A stretch of DNA of 6,760 nt, taken from positions 1 to 6,760 of the forward strand of contig JABJKO010000226.1 in assembly GCA_018660305.1 (NCBI GenBank). The letters are read 5' to 3'. The notes below the pieces were generated by a model. The model saw only the letters and a list, made by a program, of their open reading frames with translations. It made no database searches and was not told the origin of the DNA. How positions within the stretch are numbered: the first letter of the stretch is position 1; the number at the start of each line of letters is the position of its first letter. Below are positions 374 to 6,760 of the stretch, in pieces. Both the position numbers and the translations under genes were made by a program. The stretch is from Rhodospirillaceae bacterium. Lineage in GTDB: Bacteria > Pseudomonadota > Alphaproteobacteria > MPNO01 > UBA2964.

Positions 374-1129
374 CTACACCTTGTAGACGTATTCCTTGTC
401 GGGATCGCGTTCGATGTCGGGTGGGAAGTTCTTGCGCTTATCGGCGTAATACTGATCCAGGTGATAGCCTTCCGAGGCCTTGTTGTAGGTCGCGAAATAC
501 ATACGCCGCGTATGGTTGGTGGGGTTGGGTTCGGAGCGGTGCGGCGCATAGGCATCGAACAGAACCATATCGCCGGGCTTTGTCGGGTAGGTGACAAATT
601 TCATATCCCGCGTGTCTTGGTCGGTCAGCGGTTCCATGCCGCGCAGCAGGCCGCGCCGGTTCTGTCCCGGCGCCAGTTCGAGGCAGCCGTTTTCGATGGT
701 CGCCTCGTCGATGCAGATCATGACGTTGACGAAATTGCTGGCATAATCGCCCCAGCCGGCCTGGGAATCCTGGTGCGGTTCAAACCCGCCACCGCCGGGC
801 ATCTTGAAGTTGATCTTTTCCTTGAACAGCGACACGTCTTCGCCGAACAGCTGCGCCGCCGGGGCCTCCAGGAGTTGGGTCAGTTCGGCGAAACCATCAT
901 GGTAGGGGGCGATATATTCGATACGGTTGATCAGGTCGCTGTCGTCAAGACGGCTTTTCTCGTGAAAGACCCAGTGACGGCCGGGTTCCTCTGGCAGCGC
1001 TTCCACCTCATGCGCCCAGCGTTCGATGACCGCCATGTCGTCCGGGCCGAACGCGCCGGGCACCACCACATAGCCGTCGCGTTCAAAGTCGGCGATCTGT
1101 GTGTCGGTCAGAACCGGTGTCGTGACCAT
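374..1129 (-). CDS. PhyH-family Fe(II)/2-oxoglutarate dioxygenase, possible phosphonate hydroxylase
   Basis: A 251-residue cytoplasmic protein of the phytanoyl-CoA dioxygenase family, which couples oxidation of 2-oxoglutarate to hydroxylation of a substrate. The N-terminus (VLTDTQIADFERDGYVVVPG, residues 6-25) is the usual opening helix and strand of the fold. The iron ligands are visible as H119-Q-D121 in GFEPHQDSQAGW and H197 in YAPHRSEPN. R208 or R209 fits the 2-oxoglutarate carboxylate anchor. KEKINFKMPGGGG (104-115) and IENGCLEL (145-152) are family hallmarks. ATG 1129 is preferred over the upstream in-frame TTG at 1141 because GGAGAG lies 4 bases before the ATG. The gene is divergent from ppd. 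Phosphonate pathways use PhyH enzymes such as PhnY*, which hydroxylates 2-aminoethylphosphonate at C1, so a role on AEP or an AEP lipid is a reasonable inference. The substrate cannot be read from the sequence, and other small-molecule substrates remain possible. Confidence 0.9.
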   Translation of the reverse strand: MVTTPVLTDTQIADFERDGYVVVPGAFGPDDMAVIERWAHEVEALPEEPGRHWVFHEKSRLDDSDLINRIEYIAPYHDGFAELTQLLEAPAAQLFGEDVSLFKEKINFKMPGGGGFEPHQDSQAGWGDYASNFVNVMICIDEATIENGCLELAPGQNRRGLLRGMEPLTDQDTRDMKFVTYPTKPGDMVLFDAYAPHRSEPNPTNHTRRMYFATYNKASEGYHLDQYYADKRKNFPPDIERDPDKEYVYKV

Positions 1130-1161
1130 GGGGCTCTCCAATGGCTACAGCGTCTTCTAAT

Positions 1162-1190
1162 GGTATAGGAAGCGCCCGGTCCCATCGCAA
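1162..1190 (-). promoter_or_regulatory. Candidate sigma-70-like promoter for the dioxygenase gene
   Basis: On the minus strand TTGCGA (1190-1185) is followed after 17 bases by TATACC (1167-1162). Each box matches four of six consensus positions, and spacing is ideal. A start near 1155 would give a leader of about 25 bases containing the GGAGAG ribosome binding site. No equally good promoter for ppd was found on the plus strand in the same gap. Confidence 0.4.
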
Positions 1191-1277
1191 CCATTGAGGA
1201 CGAAAATTGCGCCTTACGGGTCGATTTGCCGCAACGGGCAGTCTAAAAAGGCGCCACAGGGTGTCAGGGGAAGAAAC

Positions 1278-2414
1278 ATGATCGAGGCAGACAGCTTTTT
1301 AAAACCCGCAATCGAGGCTGGGTTCAATTTTTACAGCGGCGTGCCGTGTTCGTTCCTGACCCCGATTATCAACCGGGTGATAAGCGATACCGCATTGGAT
1401 TATGTGGCGGCAGCCAGCGAAGGCGAAGCGGTGGCCATCGCCGCCGGTGCCTGGCTGGCGGGGCGGGGCACCGTCGTCATGTGCCAAAATTCCGGTCTGG
1501 GCAACGCGGTTAACCCTCTGACCTCGCTCAACTACCCGTTCCGCATCCCGACGTTGCTGATCGTCACCTGGCGCGGCGGCCCCGGTATCGAGGACGAGCC
1601 GCAGCACCAACTCATGGGACCCATCACCCCGTCGCTGCTGGAGGTGATTCAGGTGCCGCATCACGGCTTTCCATCGTCGGACAATGAAGTGCCATTGGCC
1701 CTCGCCGCCGCGCAGGATTACATGGCTGAGAAGGACCTGCCGTTCGCCATGATCATGGAAAAGGGTGCGGTGCGCGATGATGGCATTGATGCGGGCACAC
1801 CCGATATCCCCGCGCCTGGCGTGAAGCAGGATCTGAATTCCGGGGACGCTCCACCCGGGCGGGTCGCCGCCATGGAACGGCTGCTGGCGGTGGTGCCGGA
1901 TAGTGCGGCGCTGATCGCAACCACCGGCTTTACCGGGCGTGAACTTTATACGGTTTCCGACCGGCCGCAGCATCTCTATCAGGTGGGTTCCATGGGGTGC
2001 GCCGCCGGCATGGGGCTGGGGGTCGCGGTGAATGCGGACCGTCCAGTGATTGTGCTTGATGGCGACGGCGCGGCGCTGATGAAAATGGGAAGCATGGGCA
2101 CCATCGGGGCCTATGCGCCCAAGAATCTCATCCACATTGTGTTCGATAATGGCGCCTACGAATCCACCGGCGGCCAGCCCACCGTGTCGCCCAGCGTGGA
2201 TTTCGCCGGGGTGGCCATCGCCTGCGGCTATCCCAGCGCGTTCTCGTGCGACGATCTGGCGGGGTTTGAGACAGCCGTAAAAGCCGCGTTGGGTTCCGAC
2301 GGACCCCACCTCATTCATATTAAGGTCGGGCGCGGGACCATCAAGGGCCTCGGCCGCCCCACCATCGCACCGGCCGACGTCGCCCGCCGGTTCAAGGATT
2401 TCCTGGCGGGTTAG
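1278..2414 (+). CDS. ppd: Phosphonopyruvate decarboxylase
   Basis: A 378-residue thiamine diphosphate enzyme, the usual length for this family. It decarboxylates 3-phosphonopyruvate to phosphonoacetaldehyde, the step that drives the unfavourable PEP mutase equilibrium toward C-P bond formation. The N-terminal pyrimidine-binding domain starts with FNFYSGVPCSFLTPIINRVI (16-35), strongly diagnostic for Ppd, and carries the cofactor glutamate in ASEGEAVAIAAG (E48). QNSGLGNAVNPLTSL (70-84) and the TWRGGPGIEDEPQH block follow. The C-terminal domain holds the diphosphate/Mg motif, beginning at G262-D-G264 and ending at D290-N291-G in FDNGAYESTGGQPT. ATG 1278 is chosen because AGGGGAAG lies 4 bases upstream and the protein opens like its relatives; an in-frame TTG at 1194 would add 28 atypical residues. 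It faces phnW, which would use its product. The stop codon TAG is formed by the TA target base pair plus the first G of the inserted element. Confidence 0.95.
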   Translation: MIEADSFLKPAIEAGFNFYSGVPCSFLTPIINRVISDTALDYVAAASEGEAVAIAAGAWLAGRGTVVMCQNSGLGNAVNPLTSLNYPFRIPTLLIVTWRGGPGIEDEPQHQLMGPITPSLLEVIQVPHHGFPSSDNEVPLALAAAQDYMAEKDLPFAMIMEKGAVRDDGIDAGTPDIPAPGVKQDLNSGDAPPGRVAAMERLLAVVPDSAALIATTGFTGRELYTVSDRPQHLYQVGSMGCAAGMGLGVAVNADRPVIVLDGDGAALMKMGSMGTIGAYAPKNLIHIVFDNGAYESTGGQPTVSPSVDFAGVAIACGYPSAFSCDDLAGFETAVKAALGSDGPHLIHIKVGRGTIKGLGRPTIAPADVARRFKDFLAG

Positions 2415-2449
2415 AGCAGTGTCCCGCTAAATTGAATCACCTGCGCCGC

Positions 2450-2538
2450 GGGCATTTTGTGCCAGGGGTAGGAGCGTGGTGCAGCGCGTAGCCATGCTAC
2501 GGGCAAACCGCGCGACGCATCCCTGGCACAAAAGGCCC
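2450..2538. repeat. Left internal stem-loop of the element
   Basis: The arm GGGCATTTTGTGCCAGGG (2450-2467) pairs with 2521-2538 with a single mismatch. A smaller perfect hairpin, CGTAGC (2487-2492) with GCTACG (2496-2501) around CAT, is nested between them. A transcript of either strand would fold strongly here. Confidence 0.65.
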
Positions 2539-2549
2539 CGGCCCGAAGG

Positions 2550-2649
2550 GTTGCGCGCAGACGGCCGCCCGCGTCGTTGCACCCCTTGGCCGATGCGACG
2601 GCATCGCCCTGCGGGGCGCGCCTCGCGGATCGACTCATCTGCGCACAAC
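2550..2649. repeat. Right internal stem-loop of the element
   Basis: GTTGCGCGCAGA (2550-2561) pairs with TCTGCGCACAAC (2638-2649) with one mismatch. A nested hairpin, CGATGC (2591-2596) with GCATCG (2601-2606) around GACG, lies between them. With the left half and the terminal repeats this gives a three-way-junction-like layout. Confidence 0.55.
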
Positions 2650-2679
2650 GCAGGGGGTTCAATTTAGCGGGATACTGCT

Positions 2680-3819
2680 CTAGGAGGCTGGTCTCAGCCC
2701 CTCACGCGAAACGCCCATCTGGCCGAGCGCCTGCTCGATGGCGCCGAGCGCCCGTTTCATATCGGTCTCGCCGATGCGCCCGATGCAGCCGATGCGGAAG
2801 CTTATTTCCTGGGTGATGGCGCCGGGGTAGAGCACGATTCCCCGATCGTTGAGCAGATCGTAGAGCCGGGCGAAGTCGAACGCCGGGTCGGCCGGCATGC
2901 GCACGGTCACAATGATGGGGGCCTGCAGCAGATCGGGCAGGAAAGTTTCGAAACCCAGGTCGCGTAACCCGCTGACCAGGACGCCGCAATTGGCGCCATA
3001 GCGTGCGCCGCGCGCCGCCACGCCGCCTTCCGCATCCAGTTCGTTCAGCGCCTGGTCGAGGGCGGCCAGCACGTGGGTCGGCGGCGTGAAACGCCATTGC
3101 CCGGTCCGATCCATGTAGGTGGCCTGATCGTGCAGATCGAGGCTGAGGGACAGGGCGTTGCCTTCCGAGGCGGCAAGGGTATCCTTTTCTATGATCGCAT
3201 AGCCCATACCCGGCACCCCTTCGAGACATTTGTTGGCCGACGCGATAATGGCATCGGCCTTCATCCGGCGCAGATCGATGGGCAGCGCGCCGAACGTGCT
3301 CATGGCGTCGACGATCAGGCGTCTTTTTGCCGCCGCCGCCATTTCGGCGATGGCCTCGATGGGGTTCAGGACGCCCGAGGTGGTTTCGCAATGGACCACC
3401 GACACATGGGTGATTGTGCTGTCATCTTCCAGCAATTGGGCCACCCGGTTGGGATCGGGTGGCATATCTTCGGCGGTCTCGTAGGTGGTACAGGACCGGC
3501 CCATGGTTTGGCAGATTTTCTGCATGCGGCGGCCATAGGCGCCGTTGATCAGGATCAGCAATTTGCTGCTTTCGCGGGGCAGCAACGTACCCAGCGTGGC
3601 TTCCACCGCGAACGTTCCGCTGCCCTGAACCGGCACGCAGCTATGGGTGTCTTCACCATGGGCGAGGGTTGTGAGGCGCTGACGAATCCGCGCGGTCATC
3701 TCAATAAAGGCGCTGTCGCGGGAGCCCCAGTCGCGCAGCATGGCCTGTTTGACCGTGTCGGAGGTGGTCAGCGGTCCCGGTGTGAGAAGGATTTGCCGAT
3801 TTTCGCCGGTCTCGCTCAT
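2680..3819 (-). CDS. phnW: 2-aminoethylphosphonate:pyruvate transaminase
   Basis: A 379-residue PLP-dependent class V aminotransferase, slightly longer than the usual 360-370. It interconverts phosphonoacetaldehyde plus alanine with 2-aminoethylphosphonate plus pyruvate. The N-terminus reads ILLTPGPLTTSDTVKQAMLR (10-29) then DWGSRD, the PhnW hallmark. VPVQGSGTFAVEA (62-74) forms the cofactor phosphate loop and HCETTSGVLNP (143-153) is conserved. D171 in DAMSTFGALP contacts the pyridine nitrogen, and K197 in IIASANKCLEGVPG is the Schiff-base lysine. R342 in FRIGCIG fits the substrate-binding arginine. ATG 3819 is preferred because it matches family starts and has AAGGA 10 bases upstream; an ORF extension to 3918 adds 33 residues of unlike composition. 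The neighbouring ppd, with no phosphonatase in view, argues for the synthetic direction. The stop codon TAG uses TA of the target duplication and the first base of the element. Confidence 0.95.
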   Translation of the reverse strand: MSETGENRQILLTPGPLTTSDTVKQAMLRDWGSRDSAFIEMTARIRQRLTTLAHGEDTHSCVPVQGSGTFAVEATLGTLLPRESSKLLILINGAYGRRMQKICQTMGRSCTTYETAEDMPPDPNRVAQLLEDDSTITHVSVVHCETTSGVLNPIEAIAEMAAAAKRRLIVDAMSTFGALPIDLRRMKADAIIASANKCLEGVPGMGYAIIEKDTLAASEGNALSLSLDLHDQATYMDRTGQWRFTPPTHVLAALDQALNELDAEGGVAARGARYGANCGVLVSGLRDLGFETFLPDLLQAPIIVTVRMPADPAFDFARLYDLLNDRGIVLYPGAITQEISFRIGCIGRIGETDMKRALGAIEQALGQMGVSREGLRPAS

Positions 3820-3892
3820 GCGTCTTTGGTCCTTGGTACTATTGTGTAGCTTGAAACCGCAGCCAATCCGGTCAATGTAAGAGGATCGGGCC

Positions 3893-3931
3893 ATGGCTGT
3901 CGATAAGCGGGGAGGCAAAAATCAGTCATAA
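3893..3931 (+). other. 12-codon leader ORF or frameshifted true 5' end of the phosphatidyltransferase gene
   Basis: ATG at 3893 has AAGAGG-like ribosome binding sequence about 8 bases upstream and reads MAVDKRGGKNQS before TAA at 3929-3931. It runs into the phosphatidyltransferase coding frame. It crosses an A5 run (3917-3921). Dropping one A would fuse it in frame to the downstream gene, giving MAVDKRGGKISHNTWIHR. It is therefore either a broken or mis-sequenced start of that gene, a short leader peptide coupled to it, or chance. Confidence 0.4.
3909..3920 (+). promoter_or_regulatory. Strong Shine-Dalgarno sequence pointing at ATC 3921
   Basis: GGGGAGG (3909-3915) plus CAAAA places a near-ideal ribosome binding site 5 bases before an ATC codon, with no ATG, GTG or TTG at the expected place. 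In contrast GTG 3987 has no purine-rich site upstream. This site is the main evidence against the GTG start. Confidence 0.5.
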
Positions 3932-4550
3932 TACCTGGATACACAGGATTGCGCGGGTTGCCGTCAGGCCGCTGGTCGGGACTCCTGTGACGCCAAACCA
4001 TCTGACAACATTGCGGCTTGTGACGGGTCTCGGGGCGGCCGGCGTATTTGCCATCGGGACACCGGGTTGGAGAACTGCCGGAGTGGTGTTGCTTGTGGTG
4101 TCATTACTGCTAGATCGGGCTGATGGCGAACTGGCCCGGCTATCCAACCGTATGAGCCAGTCCGGCCATCGTTACGATCTCTATGCTGACGGGTTGTCCA
4201 ATGGCGCGGTATTTGTCGGCATCGGGATCGGCCTCAATGAAACTCTACTCGGGATGTGGTCTCTGCCCCTCGGCATCCTCGCGGCAATTTCGGTGGTGGC
4301 CGGTGAACTCATTCTCATGCGGCTCGATTCACTGAAGCTGGTGAGCACGGCCGATATCGGCGGCCATTGGGGATTCGATCCCGACGACGGTATGTTCGCC
4401 GTGCCCCTTTGCATTGCGCTGGGCTGGGATCTGCCCCTATTGATCGCCGCCGGAATTGGTGCGCCCGTCGCGGCACTGGTGATTGGGCTGGTGTTGCTGC
4501 GCCAACAGAATGTGGCGACTGCCGCGAAGGATAGCGGATCCGGTGAATAG
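3921..4550 (+). CDS. CDP-alcohol phosphatidyltransferase, candidate phosphonolipid head-group transferase
   Basis: An integral membrane enzyme of about 209 residues that transfers a phospho- or phosphono-alcohol head group from a CDP-linked donor with release of CMP. The full catalytic signature D-x2-D-G-x2-A-R-x8-G-x3-D-x3-D is present: D65, D68, G69, A72, R73, G82, D86, D90 (counting from 3921). About five or six hydrophobic segments follow the family pattern, with LTTLRLVTGLGAAGVFAIG before the motif and two long segments near the C-terminus. The first conventional start is GTG 3987, but the frame is open upstream and encodes a family-like amphipathic N-terminus, ISHNTWIHRIARVAVRPLVG. A strong GGGGAGG lies 5 bases before ATC 3921. 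That suggests an AUC start, or a one-base indel placing the true ATG at 3893. The gene sits beside ppd/phnW and 26 bases ahead of the RND gene. A phosphonate head group is inferred from context only; ordinary phospholipid synthesis is the alternative. Confidence 0.85.
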   Translation: MSHNTWIHRIARVAVRPLVGTPVTPNHLTTLRLVTGLGAAGVFAIGTPGWRTAGVVLLVVSLLLDRADGELARLSNRMSQSGHRYDLYADGLSNGAVFVGIGIGLNETLLGMWSLPLGILAAISVVAGELILMRLDSLKLVSTADIGGHWGFDPDDGMFAVPLCIALGWDLPLLIAAGIGAPVAALVIGLVLLRQQNVATAAKDSGSGE

Positions 4551-4576
4551 GGTGCGCGTAAGGAGTGAGTGCGGCT

Positions 4577-6760
4577 GTGTCCATTGCCTTCCGTAACGGG
4601 GTTTCGAGCTGGGTCGACGGTGTGTGCCGCCACGCATGGTTTGTCCTTGTGGCGTCTCTTGTCCTGACCGGGCTGAGCGGCTGGTATACGGCGACCCACC
4701 TTGCCATTGATACCGATACCGACGGCATGCTGTCGTCGGAGCTCGATTTCCGGCAAAACTCCATCCGCCTGAAGCAGGCTTTTCCCCAGCTTTCCAACAA
4801 CATCGCCATTGTCATTGACGGCGATACGGCCGATCAGGCGGATGATGCGGCCCTCGCACTTGCCAGGGCCCTACGCGGCCAGCCGGGTTTGTTTCGCAAC
4901 GTATTTGACCCCAGGGGCGAGCCTTTCCTGCGCCGTAACGGGCTGTTGTTTCTCGACGAAGACAAGCTGGGGCAATTGGTCGACCGGCTGGCGGCAGCCC
5001 AGGTATTTCTGGCCAAACTGTCCCGCGATCCCAGCCTGCGCGGCCTGTTTGGGGTTCTCCGGCTGGCTCTGGACAATTCGGATGCGGCGGCCTCGCCGGC
5101 CGAGTTGAAACGGGTGTTAAACGCGGTGGCCGATGCGGCGGACGCCGAGATCGCAGGGCGCCGCGATGTGGTGTCCTGGAGTGGCTTGCTCGATGGCAAA
5201 CGGGCGGCGGACGACAGACGGCGAATTATTCTGGTCCAACCAAGGCTCGATTTCGCCTCCCTGGCGCCTGCTTCCGATGCCATGGCGACCATTCGCCGGC
5301 AGGCCGTTTCTCTGGGACTGACGCGCGACGCCGGTGTGCGCATTCGATTGACCGGGTCGGCGCCGCTCGAGCATGAGGAGCTGGAAAGTGTCGCCGAGGG
5401 GATGGGGATCGCCGGCATCGTGTCCCTGACGCTGGTGCTGGTTCTTCTTCTGTGGGGACTGAAATCGCCCCGGCTTGTGGCCGCTCTTTTGGTCACCCTG
5501 ATCATGGGACTGATCTGGACCGCCGCTTTCGCGACCCTGACGGTTGGGCGACTCAATCTGATATCAGTGGCTTTCGCGGTGCTGTTCATTGGATTGAGTG
5601 TGGATTTCGGCATTCATTTCGTCCTGCGGGTCCGTGAGGAGATGGCGAAAGCCCCATCGGTTCTTGCCGCCATGCGCCCGGCCGCCGATGGTGTCTCCGG
5701 CGCCCTGTGGCTCTGTGCCATTGCCGCGGCGATCGCCTTTTTCTCGTTTCTGCCTACCGATTACGTGGGGCTTGCCGAACTTGGCGTTATCGCGGGATCG
5801 GGCATGTTCATCGCGCTCTTCGCCAACCTTACAGTCCTGCCGGCCTGTATGGTGATCGCGCCGCCGGCGCGGACAGCGGGCGCGGACGCCGTGACCGTAA
5901 TTGCCGCGGGTCGGAGATCCTGGCGCATACGCCATGCCCGCGCCATTGTCGGGGTGGCTGTTGTCCTGGCCCTGGCCGCAGCCGCGCTATCGCCTCTTGT
6001 GCGGTTCGATTTTGATCCTCTCAATCTGAAGGACCGGTCGACGGAATCGGTCCAGACATTGTTCGACCTGATGGGCAACGAGGATACCGCGCCCTATACG
6101 GCCGATGTCCTGGCGGCCAATGAAGCAGCGGCGAAAGATCTGACGGCCAGGCTGGAGGCGTTGCCAACCGTTAAAAGCGTTCTTTCAATCGAGCGGTTCG
6201 TTCCCGGCGATCAGGAAAACAAGCTGGCGATCATCGAGTCGGCGGCGTTGCTCATGCTACCGGCCCTTGAAGCCCCGCGCATCGCTTCACCCAACGATGC
6301 CCGTACAAGCGTAGCCTTCAAACAGTTTCGCGACCAACTGGCAAAGATGGTCTCTTCTCCCGTTTCCGGTTCCGCCTCCTTGTCACCTACGATCCGGCGT
6401 CTATGGTCGAGTTTGGGTCGTCTGACGCCCACCACGGACACGCTCCGCTCCCTGGAACGCCGTCTCCTCTCCACACTACCCGGCCGGTTGCAGGCATTGC
6501 GGGAATCGCTGGAGGCCGGACCGGTGATTCTGGCGGATCTGCCTCCGTCATTGTGGGGCCGGTTCGTTGGCCAGCAGGGCCAAAGACGTCTGGAGATCTT
6601 TCCGTCGGAAAACGTGCGCGAACAGGTCCACCTTCGGCGCTTCGTTGCGGATGTTCAGACGGTCGCGCCCCATGCAACGGGATCGCCGGTCATCATCGTT
6701 GCGGCGGGCGAAGCCGTGGTGCGCGCCTTCGCCATCGCGGCGGCGATCTCGGTGGTGACC
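4577..6760 (+). CDS. hpnN: HpnN-like MMPL/RND transporter (runs off right edge)
   Basis: The first 728 codons of an inner-membrane RND protein of the MMPL/HpnN type (usually about 850-900 aa); the last membrane helices lie beyond the window. HpnN exports hopanoids from inner to outer membrane. Segment 1 spans about 20-40, followed by a periplasmic domain (41-275). Helices 2-6 follow at about 276-295, 299-321, 326-348, 374-394 and 400-425, and helix 7 at about 455-477. Then comes a second periplasmic domain, and helix 8 begins near 706 (EAVVRAFAIAAAI). The signature GLSVDFGIHFVLRVREE (339-355) and the blocks FDFDPLNLKD and VLSIERFVPGDQENKLAIIE match HpnN closely. GTG 4577 is chosen because AAGGAG (4560-4565) lies 11 bases before it; in-frame GTG 4565 overlaps that site, and TAA 4559 blocks anything earlier. 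It is probably cotranscribed with the phosphatidyltransferase. The cargo could be a hopanoid or the lipid made by its neighbours. Confidence 0.88.
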   Translation, partial: MSIAFRNGVSSWVDGVCRHAWFVLVASLVLTGLSGWYTATHLAIDTDTDGMLSSELDFRQNSIRLKQAFPQLSNNIAIVIDGDTADQADDAALALARALRGQPGLFRNVFDPRGEPFLRRNGLLFLDEDKLGQLVDRLAAAQVFLAKLSRDPSLRGLFGVLRLALDNSDAAASPAELKRVLNAVADAADAEIAGRRDVVSWSGLLDGKRAADDRRRIILVQPRLDFASLAPASDAMATIRRQAVSLGLTRDAGVRIRLTGSAPLEHEELESVAEGMGIAGIVSLTLVLVLLLWGLKSPRLVAALLVTLIMGLIWTAAFATLTVGRLNLISVAFAVLFIGLSVDFGIHFVLRVREEMAKAPSVLAAMRPAADGVSGALWLCAIAAAIAFFSFLPTDYVGLAELGVIAGSGMFIALFANLTVLPACMVIAPPARTAGADAVTVIAAGRRSWRIRHARAIVGVAVVLALAAAALSPLVRFDFDPLNLKDRSTESVQTLFDLMGNEDTAPYTADVLAANEAAAKDLTARLEALPTVKSVLSIERFVPGDQENKLAIIESAALLMLPALEAPRIASPNDARTSVAFKQFRDQLAKMVSSPVSGSASLSPTIRRLWSSLGRLTPTTDTLRSLERRLLSTLPGRLQALRESLEAGPVILADLPPSLWGRFVGQQGQRRLEIFPSENVREQVHLRRFVADVQTVAPHATGSPVIIVAAGEAVVRAFAIAAAISVVT

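Follow-up and report, generated by a model that had tools for sequence, protein, structure and literature searches.

The 6,760-nt stretch of DNA analyzed here (contig JABJKO010000226.1 of assembly GCA_018660305.1, Rhodospirillaceae bacterium; hereafter the window) codes for a PhyH-family dioxygenase, the phosphonopyruvate decarboxylase Ppd, the transaminase PhnW, a CDP-alcohol phosphotransferase (CDPOH), and the hopanoid-associated transporter HpnN (Table 1). The reading that we favor, at about even confidence, is of a phosphonolipid cluster built into a hopanoid cluster, in which 2-aminoethylphosphonate (AEP) would be activated to its cytidine monophosphate derivative (CMP-AEP), transferred onto a bacteriohopanepolyol by CDPOH, and exported by HpnN. 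It is based on gene identities, gene order, and co-occurrence among genomes, from which we infer the CMP-AEP donor, the hopanoid acceptor, the hydroxylation, and the HpnN cargo. A first-pass annotation of the window had placed the five genes correctly, the phosphotransferase with its motif intact, and Ppd, PhnW, and HpnN all score above curated cut-offs. It proposed that AEP is made, attached to a lipid, and exported by HpnN; each of these steps gains comparative support, with production of the lipid itself predicted from the genes. Among the diacylglycerol, ceramide, and hopanoid backbones that it listed, the comparative evidence points to hopanoid, and its interpretation is partly supported, with hopanoid as the favored backbone.

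A protein search with CDPOH gave 2420 matches, 120 of them listed, and a scan of one genome per species gave at least 224 relatives, the best 80 loci of which were analyzed; neighboring open reading frames (ORFs) were clustered unsupervised, and one representative per cluster was searched against families. The order and strands of PhyH, Ppd, PhnW, CDPOH, and HpnN in the window are repeated in five other loci (L002, L003, L004, L140, and L155). In L003, L004, and L140, one flank carries a stand-alone nucleotidyltransferase (NTPt), HpnA, HpnH, HpnG, and the squalene-hopene cyclase Shc, and the other carries HpnL, HpnM, and MlaA; L155 has the same flanks, with HpnH inside its stretch and Shc just beyond it (G180:C5), and the L002 stretch is too short to show them. 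Wherever flanks are visible there are hopanoid genes on both sides, so that in these relatives the genes shared with the window form the middle of a hopanoid cluster. The window's branch of the CDPOH tree (174 sequences) contains eight other loci (L001, L002, L003, L004, L006, L040, L140, and L155, from genomes G001, G002, G003, G004, G006, G033, G285, and G180, respectively). Neither a phosphoenolpyruvate mutase (PepM) nor a cytidylyltransferase, both expected for CMP-AEP, lies within the 6.8-kb window, and seven of the eight window-branch genomes encode elsewhere a PepM-nucleotidyltransferase fusion above its cut-off; the eighth, G033 (L040), has no PepM above the cut-off. An ORF of ~508–594 amino acids is found between NTPt and PhyH in L004 (5154–6692), L040 (7144–8670), and also L140.

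To these arrangements we add a class sample of 385 alphaproteobacterial genomes, the class of Skermanella (G037), scored for CDPOH (E up to 1e-20), HpnN (E up to 1e-100), and PepM (over the cut-off). CDPOH is present in 45 genomes, PepM in 44, HpnN in 112, and Shc in 103 (102 above the cut-off plus G123, where it is in fragments; four weak matches were excluded), the CDPOH and HpnN counts being lower bounds, with up to eight and two candidates scored per genome, respectively. PepM occurs in 37 of the 45 CDPOH genomes versus 7 of the 340 others, and Shc in 44 of 45 versus 59 of 340. Shc is likewise present in 41 of 44 PepM genomes versus 62 of 341 lacking PepM, and only 3 of the 282 genomes without Shc have PepM; these three (G276, G388, and G392) are also without CDPOH and NTPt and have shorter PepM frames, of 438–452 amino acids. 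The association holds within the Shc genomes, where PepM is found in 37 of 44 with CDPOH versus 4 of 59 without it. Fisher values are 2e-16 or less, although the genomes are related and the values are not readable as probabilities. In 28 of 45 genomes CDPOH has HpnN, Shc, or HpnH no more than 15 kb away, though many assemblies are fragmented, and in 21 of 40 genomes it has PepM at that range (three of the 40, G086, G377, and G442, having PepM below the cut-off). Together with the five-locus order, the association across the 385 genomes shows that the adjacency in the window is not chance proximity.

HpnH, the entry to side-chain hopanoids, is present in all 45 CDPOH genomes, including G045, the lone one without Shc; we considered it as a discriminator and set it aside, as it is found in all 80 genomes (the 45 plus 35 Shc genomes without CDPOH) and is consistent with the association without discriminating. 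Replacement of the outer membrane, with the carriers lacking lipopolysaccharide, was also rejected, LpxC being above its cut-off in 41 of the 45 CDPOH genomes.

Beyond the class sample, 53 genomes of a gammaproteobacterial order, which were chosen via a CDPOH match and hence are not neutral, have PepM above the cut-off in 43, CDPOH in 46, and Shc above the cut-off in 43; of the 53, 40 have PepM together with Shc, 7 have neither, and 6 have just one. PepM (TIGR02320) is above its cut-off in 59 of the 79 genomes holding CDPOH loci (38 of 50 and 22 of 30, with one genome shared). The conserved neighbors of CDPOH are an HpnL-like flippase, HpnA, PhyH, HpnN, NTPt, HpnM, Ppd, the PepM fusion, PhnW, HpnH, MlaA, IspH, HpnG, HpnK, HpnJ, Shc, and HpnI. 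Representatives of HpnA, HpnD, HpnH, HpnI, HpnJ, HpnK, HpnM, and HpnN are above their cut-offs, and those of HpnG (178.9 versus 187.1) and HpnL (179.8 versus 195.65) slightly below. Many of the best 80 stretches stop at contig ends; 24 contain hopanoid as well as phosphonate genes, in 31 the hopanoid genes stand alone, in 9 the phosphonate genes do, and 16 (L008 and L016 among them) have neither. In three of the 24 (L021, L030, and L062) HpnM is the sole counted hopanoid gene; the label HpnA/OleD, which mixes HpnA with OleD-like proteins of gammaproteobacterial loci, was left out of the hopanoid counts. An ORF labeled PepM beside the HpnK-linked CDPOH of L138, L139, and L142 is only ~30% like PepM and probably represents a different member of the superfamily; because L067 has this neighbor too, it is counted among the hopanoid-only loci.

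The two sets of genes also meet in other orders. L119, L123, and L127 have one run of Shc-HpnG-HpnH-IspH-HpnL-CDPOH-HpnA-CDPOH-NTPt-HpnN-HpnM-PepM-Ppd-PhnW, from which L124/L125 (two contigs), L126, and L128 differ slightly; in L145 the run lacks CDPOH, present on a separate contig of that genome. Skermanella aerolata 5416T-32 (L048), a cultured strain, has HpnN-HpnA-CDPOH-HpnL-PhyH-NTPt-PepM-Ppd-PhnW. HpnL, CDPOH, NTPt, the PepM fusion, and a second CDPOH lie together in L120–L122 (assemblies of 0.9–1.1 Mb), with Ppd, PhyH, and PhnW additionally in L120 and L122, and L119 sits in a 1.2-Mb assembly. In small assemblies of 0.9–1.2 Mb (L119–L122; G194, G231, G327, and G402) PepM, CDPOH, and NTPt are all retained, and Shc and HpnH lie beside them or elsewhere; if these genomes are streamlined, a costly trait is being kept. 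CDPOH also directly follows HpnI-HpnJ-HpnK, genes known for hopanoid head groups, in three window-branch genomes (L138, L139, and L142) and among the gammaproteobacterial loci, where HpnI, HpnJ, and HpnK are above their cut-offs in the two members examined, L038 and L077. HpnL-HpnI-HpnJ-HpnK-CDPOH lies near OleB-, OleC-, and OleD-like genes (names inferred) in L036, L038, L045, L057, L072, and L077, and L038 has a HetI-like phosphopantetheinyl transferase below its cut-off.

Clusters carry up to three types of CDPOH. Group C of the CDPOH tree (after HpnN, or beside HpnL-HpnI) is clear, with support of at least 0.98 for its main part; the remainder we read as group A, the window's type, which lies beside PhnW, Ppd, PhyH, or NTPt and includes the HpnK-linked CDPOH, and group B, its divergent partner, a split given without a support value. 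Two Rhodospirillaceae metagenome-assembled genomes (L108 and L109) show another arrangement, in which PepM-Ppd is accompanied by two group-C-like phosphotransferases and a pair of cytidylyltransferase-like ORFs.

The identity of the activating enzyme bears on the donor. The best solved match of the NTPt profile (A2; 20 rows, ~248 amino acids) is Treponema denticola PntC (Tde-PntC; 6pd1, E 4e-25, full length), followed by LicC (1e-16) and inositol-1-phosphate cytidylyltransferase (9e-13). Two Tde-PntC residues, Glu104 and Glu196, were taken from the available text of PMC6697681; Glu196 aligns to the first Glu of YE[ED]A, kept in at least 90% of rows, and Glu104 to an invariant Asp, as in LicC. 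NTPt scores at least 230 bits in 44 of the 45 CDPOH genomes (the exception being G058), in 4 of the 7 PepM genomes without detected CDPOH (precisely the four with Shc), and in none of 28 Shc genomes without CDPOH and PepM, five of which have weaker matches (best, 145 bits). Because NTPt is nearest to PntC and follows the CDPOH and PepM genomes, CMP-AEP is the likely donor; phosphocholine or phosphoethanolamine is a possible NTPt substrate. An apparent 90-residue extra domain on NTPt, noticed initially in L033, seems to stem from a mis-called start. We also considered the nucleotidyltransferase domain fused to PepM (L007, L030, L048, L106, and others) as a candidate AEP cytidylyltransferase: it has AA[SAT]RG in 74 of 78 ORFs and AAGxG, the motif of the stand-alone enzymes, in none, and its profile matches LicC best (E 2e-18), followed by sugar nucleotidyltransferases and, after these, PntC (E 4e-11). 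The PepM motif EDKxxxxxNS is present in 77 of these 78 fusion ORFs, some of which are repeats of one gene.

We propose that AEP would be made by Ppd and PhnW together with PepM, which is fused to a nucleotidyltransferase-like domain and in the nearest relatives lies at another place in the genome, and that the separate PntC-like cytidylyltransferase would convert it to CMP-AEP. The CDPOH beside PhnW would then transfer the AEP group to a hydroxyl of a bacteriohopanepolyol, giving a phosphonohopanoid; the primary C-35 alcohol of bacteriohopanetetrol would be the simplest acceptor site. PhyH may hydroxylate AEP or the lipid, and HpnL, HpnN, HpnM, and MlaA would carry the phosphonohopanoid to the outer membrane. 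Tentatively, and a little short of even confidence, we extend this to a general proposal: that a dedicated CDPOH family esterifies AEP or hydroxy-AEP to bacteriohopanepolyol, that HpnN exports the resulting phosphonohopanoids, which seem to be an undescribed lipid class, and that this is where biosynthetic phosphonate mainly ends up in hopanoid-making Alphaproteobacteria, those with ~1-Mb assemblies included, and in at least one gammaproteobacterial order.

The alternative that survives best, although we think it unlikely, is that CMP-AEP reacts with diacylglycerol to give an AEP analogue of phosphatidylethanolamine, which HpnN, HpnM, and MlaA would sort together with hopanoids. Such a glycerophosphonolipid has precedent, the known phosphonolipids being diacylglycerol-AEP and ceramide-AEP, and Pfam places HpnM and MlaA among the Mla-type phospholipid carriers. 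However, a diacylglycerol acceptor gives no reason for the presence of Shc in all but one of the CDPOH genomes, and of HpnH even in that exception, and it likewise leaves unexplained why CDPOH directly follows HpnI-HpnJ-HpnK.

Somewhat less probable again is that CDPOH makes a phosphorus-linked hopanoid from another donor, with AEP an added option or used elsewhere; the donor could be CDP-diacylglycerol, giving a phosphatidyl-hopanoid, or a CDP-alcohol made by NTPt from phosphocholine, phosphoethanolamine, or a cyclitol phosphate. Several observations favor it and weigh against a phosphonohopanoid. The first-pass annotation had named frequent occurrence of the phosphotransferase with HpnN, apart from phosphonate genes, as a finding that would speak against its own proposal; mostly this is not seen, as PepM is above the cut-off in 31 of the 39 class-sample genomes with both, and of the other eight, three (G045, G086, and G442) have PepM fragments and G377 has a match below the cut-off that may be only a relative. 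In the remaining four (G013, G033, G090, and G292) no PepM was found. One of these, G033, provides a case of natural decay: at L040 (8705–9888) Ppd is absent, PhnW is a fragment, and PhyH is in two frames, whereas CDPOH, NTPt, and HpnN keep open frames and conservation. Their identities to L003 and L004 are 84 and 84% for CDPOH (80% between L003 and L004), 83 and 82% for NTPt (81%), and 77 and 74% for HpnN (76%). Either the loss is recent or these three genes also serve another donor. PhyH, NTPt, and CDPOH also occur together without PepM above the cut-off in L132, L133, L061, and L065; since these genes persist in some PepM-less genomes, a non-phosphonate donor is possible, and the substrate of PhyH may be the lipid instead of AEP. 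Also in favor of another donor are the multiple CDPOH types per cluster and the fold comparison, in which the best matches behind AF2299 are PIP synthases, enzymes that use CDP-diacylglycerol. Against another donor stand the strong enrichment of PepM in CDPOH genomes over the rest of the class sample and the cytidylyltransferase profile, which is nearest to an AEP-specific enzyme.

It is very improbable that the phosphonate is destined for a glycan or secreted small molecule and that adjacency to hopanoid genes is genomic hitch-hiking in one lineage: the available text of PMC6697681 predicts that bacterial phosphonate capacity mostly decorates cell-surface glycans and lipids, but the association recurs in Alphaproteobacteria and a gammaproteobacterial order in different gene orders, and among the 33 neighbor families in at least five loci (5 window genes, 22 annotated by a representative, and 6 without annotation) the 22 annotated ones include no LicD or capsule gene, HpnI being the sole glycosyltransferase.

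Within the window, Ppd and the AEP transaminase, two enzymes of AEP biosynthesis, are both above curated cut-offs. PhnW is also above the TIGR02326 cut-off (477.8 versus 400.8 bits); its frame is open as far as 3918, and we took the ATG that begins MSETGENRQ as the start. The CDPOH family motif D-x2-D-G-x2-A-R-x8-G-x3-D-x3-D, read directly from the sequence, is intact, and the family fold is found as well; the protein is below every NCBIfam cut-off compared (PIPS, AIPS, PssA, and ClsA; best, 47.7 bits versus 180 for AIPS), as are five relatives. Homology in the CDPOH frame extends as far back as 3921 (ISHNTWIHR...), with GGGAGG preceding the ATC at 3921 and no standard start codon in 3921–3986; the near protein records P0002, P0003, and P0005 likewise use the later start. 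HpnN begins 14 bases beyond the stop codon of CDPOH; the window ends within the gene, after 732 codons, and these cover positions 3–723 of the 862 in the TIGR03480 profile; against the stricter NF052374 this protein, cut by the window end, scores 603 bits versus a cut-off of 1100. The best NCBIfam match of PhyH is the methylphosphonate hydroxylase NF052437, at 163.8 bits far below the cut-off of 500, and it does not qualify as a PhnY-type methylphosphonate hydroxylase. A PhyH homologue is present in 36 of the 80 CDPOH loci, and among the matches listed 1 of 120 PhyH homologues (P0144) is named 2-aminoethylphosphonate dioxygenase; from its sequence, PhyH is a possible hydroxylase of AEP or of the lipid.

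Table 1. Genes of the window, with coordinates, strand, and identifying features
Gene product	Coordinates	Strand	Features
PhyH-family Fe(II)/2-oxoglutarate dioxygenase	374..1129	-	PF05721, 100.6 bits; HxD motif in GFEPHQDSQAGWG
Ppd, phosphonopyruvate decarboxylase	1278..2414	+	TIGR03297, 422 bits (cut-off 312.5); ATG at 1278
PhnW, 2-aminoethylphosphonate-pyruvate transaminase	2680..3819	-	PRK13479, 522.5 bits (cut-off 296)
CDP-alcohol phosphotransferase (CDPOH, window type)	3987..4550	+	PF01066, 53 bits; start GTG at 3987
HpnN, hopanoid-associated RND transporter	4565..6760	+	TIGR03480, 801.9 bits (cut-off 751.85)

At the left end of the window, positions 1–179 hold, on the minus strand, the start of a GIY-YIG-like ORF (MPYFTYILASKPRGTLYIGVTNDIARRAYEHRHG..., by eye), where same-order relatives have NTPt or another gene. 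Positions 205–345 contain two similar stretches, ggatcaagtccgagcatgacgg and ggaacaagtccgaggatgacga (by eye), which we take to resemble a dispersed repeat of a kind common in Alphaproteobacteria. The ORF and the adjoining repeats are a sign of insertion or rearrangement.

The predicted first steps are the same as in the PepM/Ppm-Ppd-AEP transaminase-PntC route of Treponema denticola and Atopobium rimae, NTPt being nearest to the PntC of T. denticola, and the PepM of the relatives is fused to a PF12804-type domain, as are, according to the accessible part of PMC6697681, 32.9% of Ppm proteins. Those systems have a glycan or an unknown acceptor, whereas here CDPOH and hopanoid genes come next. CDPOH has the CDP-alcohol phosphotransferase fold and motif of AF2299, PIP synthase, and cholinephosphotransferase, but at 10–22% identity to them, with an FDPDD motif and no NCBIfam cut-off reached, it forms its own subfamily. 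The sections available of a 2025 survey of hopanoid producers (PMC12583986) report that HpnN moves hopanoids to the outer membrane and that there are no obvious further candidate genes near the hpn clusters of its strains beyond hpnA, B, L, and M; those sections do not name the phosphonate genes, PntC, or CDPOH of the clusters described here, and its main text contains no words beginning with "phosphon". From 52 strains grown it describes, in those sections, 63 hopanoid structures in five groups, none reported as phosphorus-bearing. In S. aerolata 5416T-32 it reports hopanoids by mass spectrometry and no Rohmer degradation products, for which its authors, in the same sections, call the reason unclear and suggest detection limits. 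In the first-pass annotation a linkage between AEP lipids and an HpnN-like pump was taken as not known to be described, and among the matches listed in the open-licence literature we found no paper on phosphonate-bearing hopanoids and none on AEP with HpnN; linkage of the cyclase to PEP mutase, though, had been described. In the available portion of PMC8776678 (2021), several Roseomonas link a hopene cyclase gene to PEP mutase, with a decarboxylase and aminotransferase beside the mutase, as in our loci, and an undiscovered terpene-phosphonate is guessed at; that case, from antiSMASH and in one family, does not in this portion name the phosphotransferase, cytidylyltransferase, transporter, or mechanism. 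The link between phosphonate and cyclase had been noticed once, in one family; new, as far as our searches go, are the phosphotransferase and PntC-like enzyme, the occurrence across many lineages, and the proposed mechanism.

Hopanoids are bacterial analogues of sterols and, through their remains, major molecular fossils. In the sea, phosphonates account for up to 25% of the dissolved organic phosphorus, according to the available text of PMC9381506. The question is testable because the cultured S. aerolata 5416T-32 carries the genes. If phosphonohopanoids are indeed made, they would join two questions, the role of environmental PepM and the cargo of the unassigned hpn genes and the HpnN pump, and a charged class of hopanoids may have escaped surveys aimed at the known ones.

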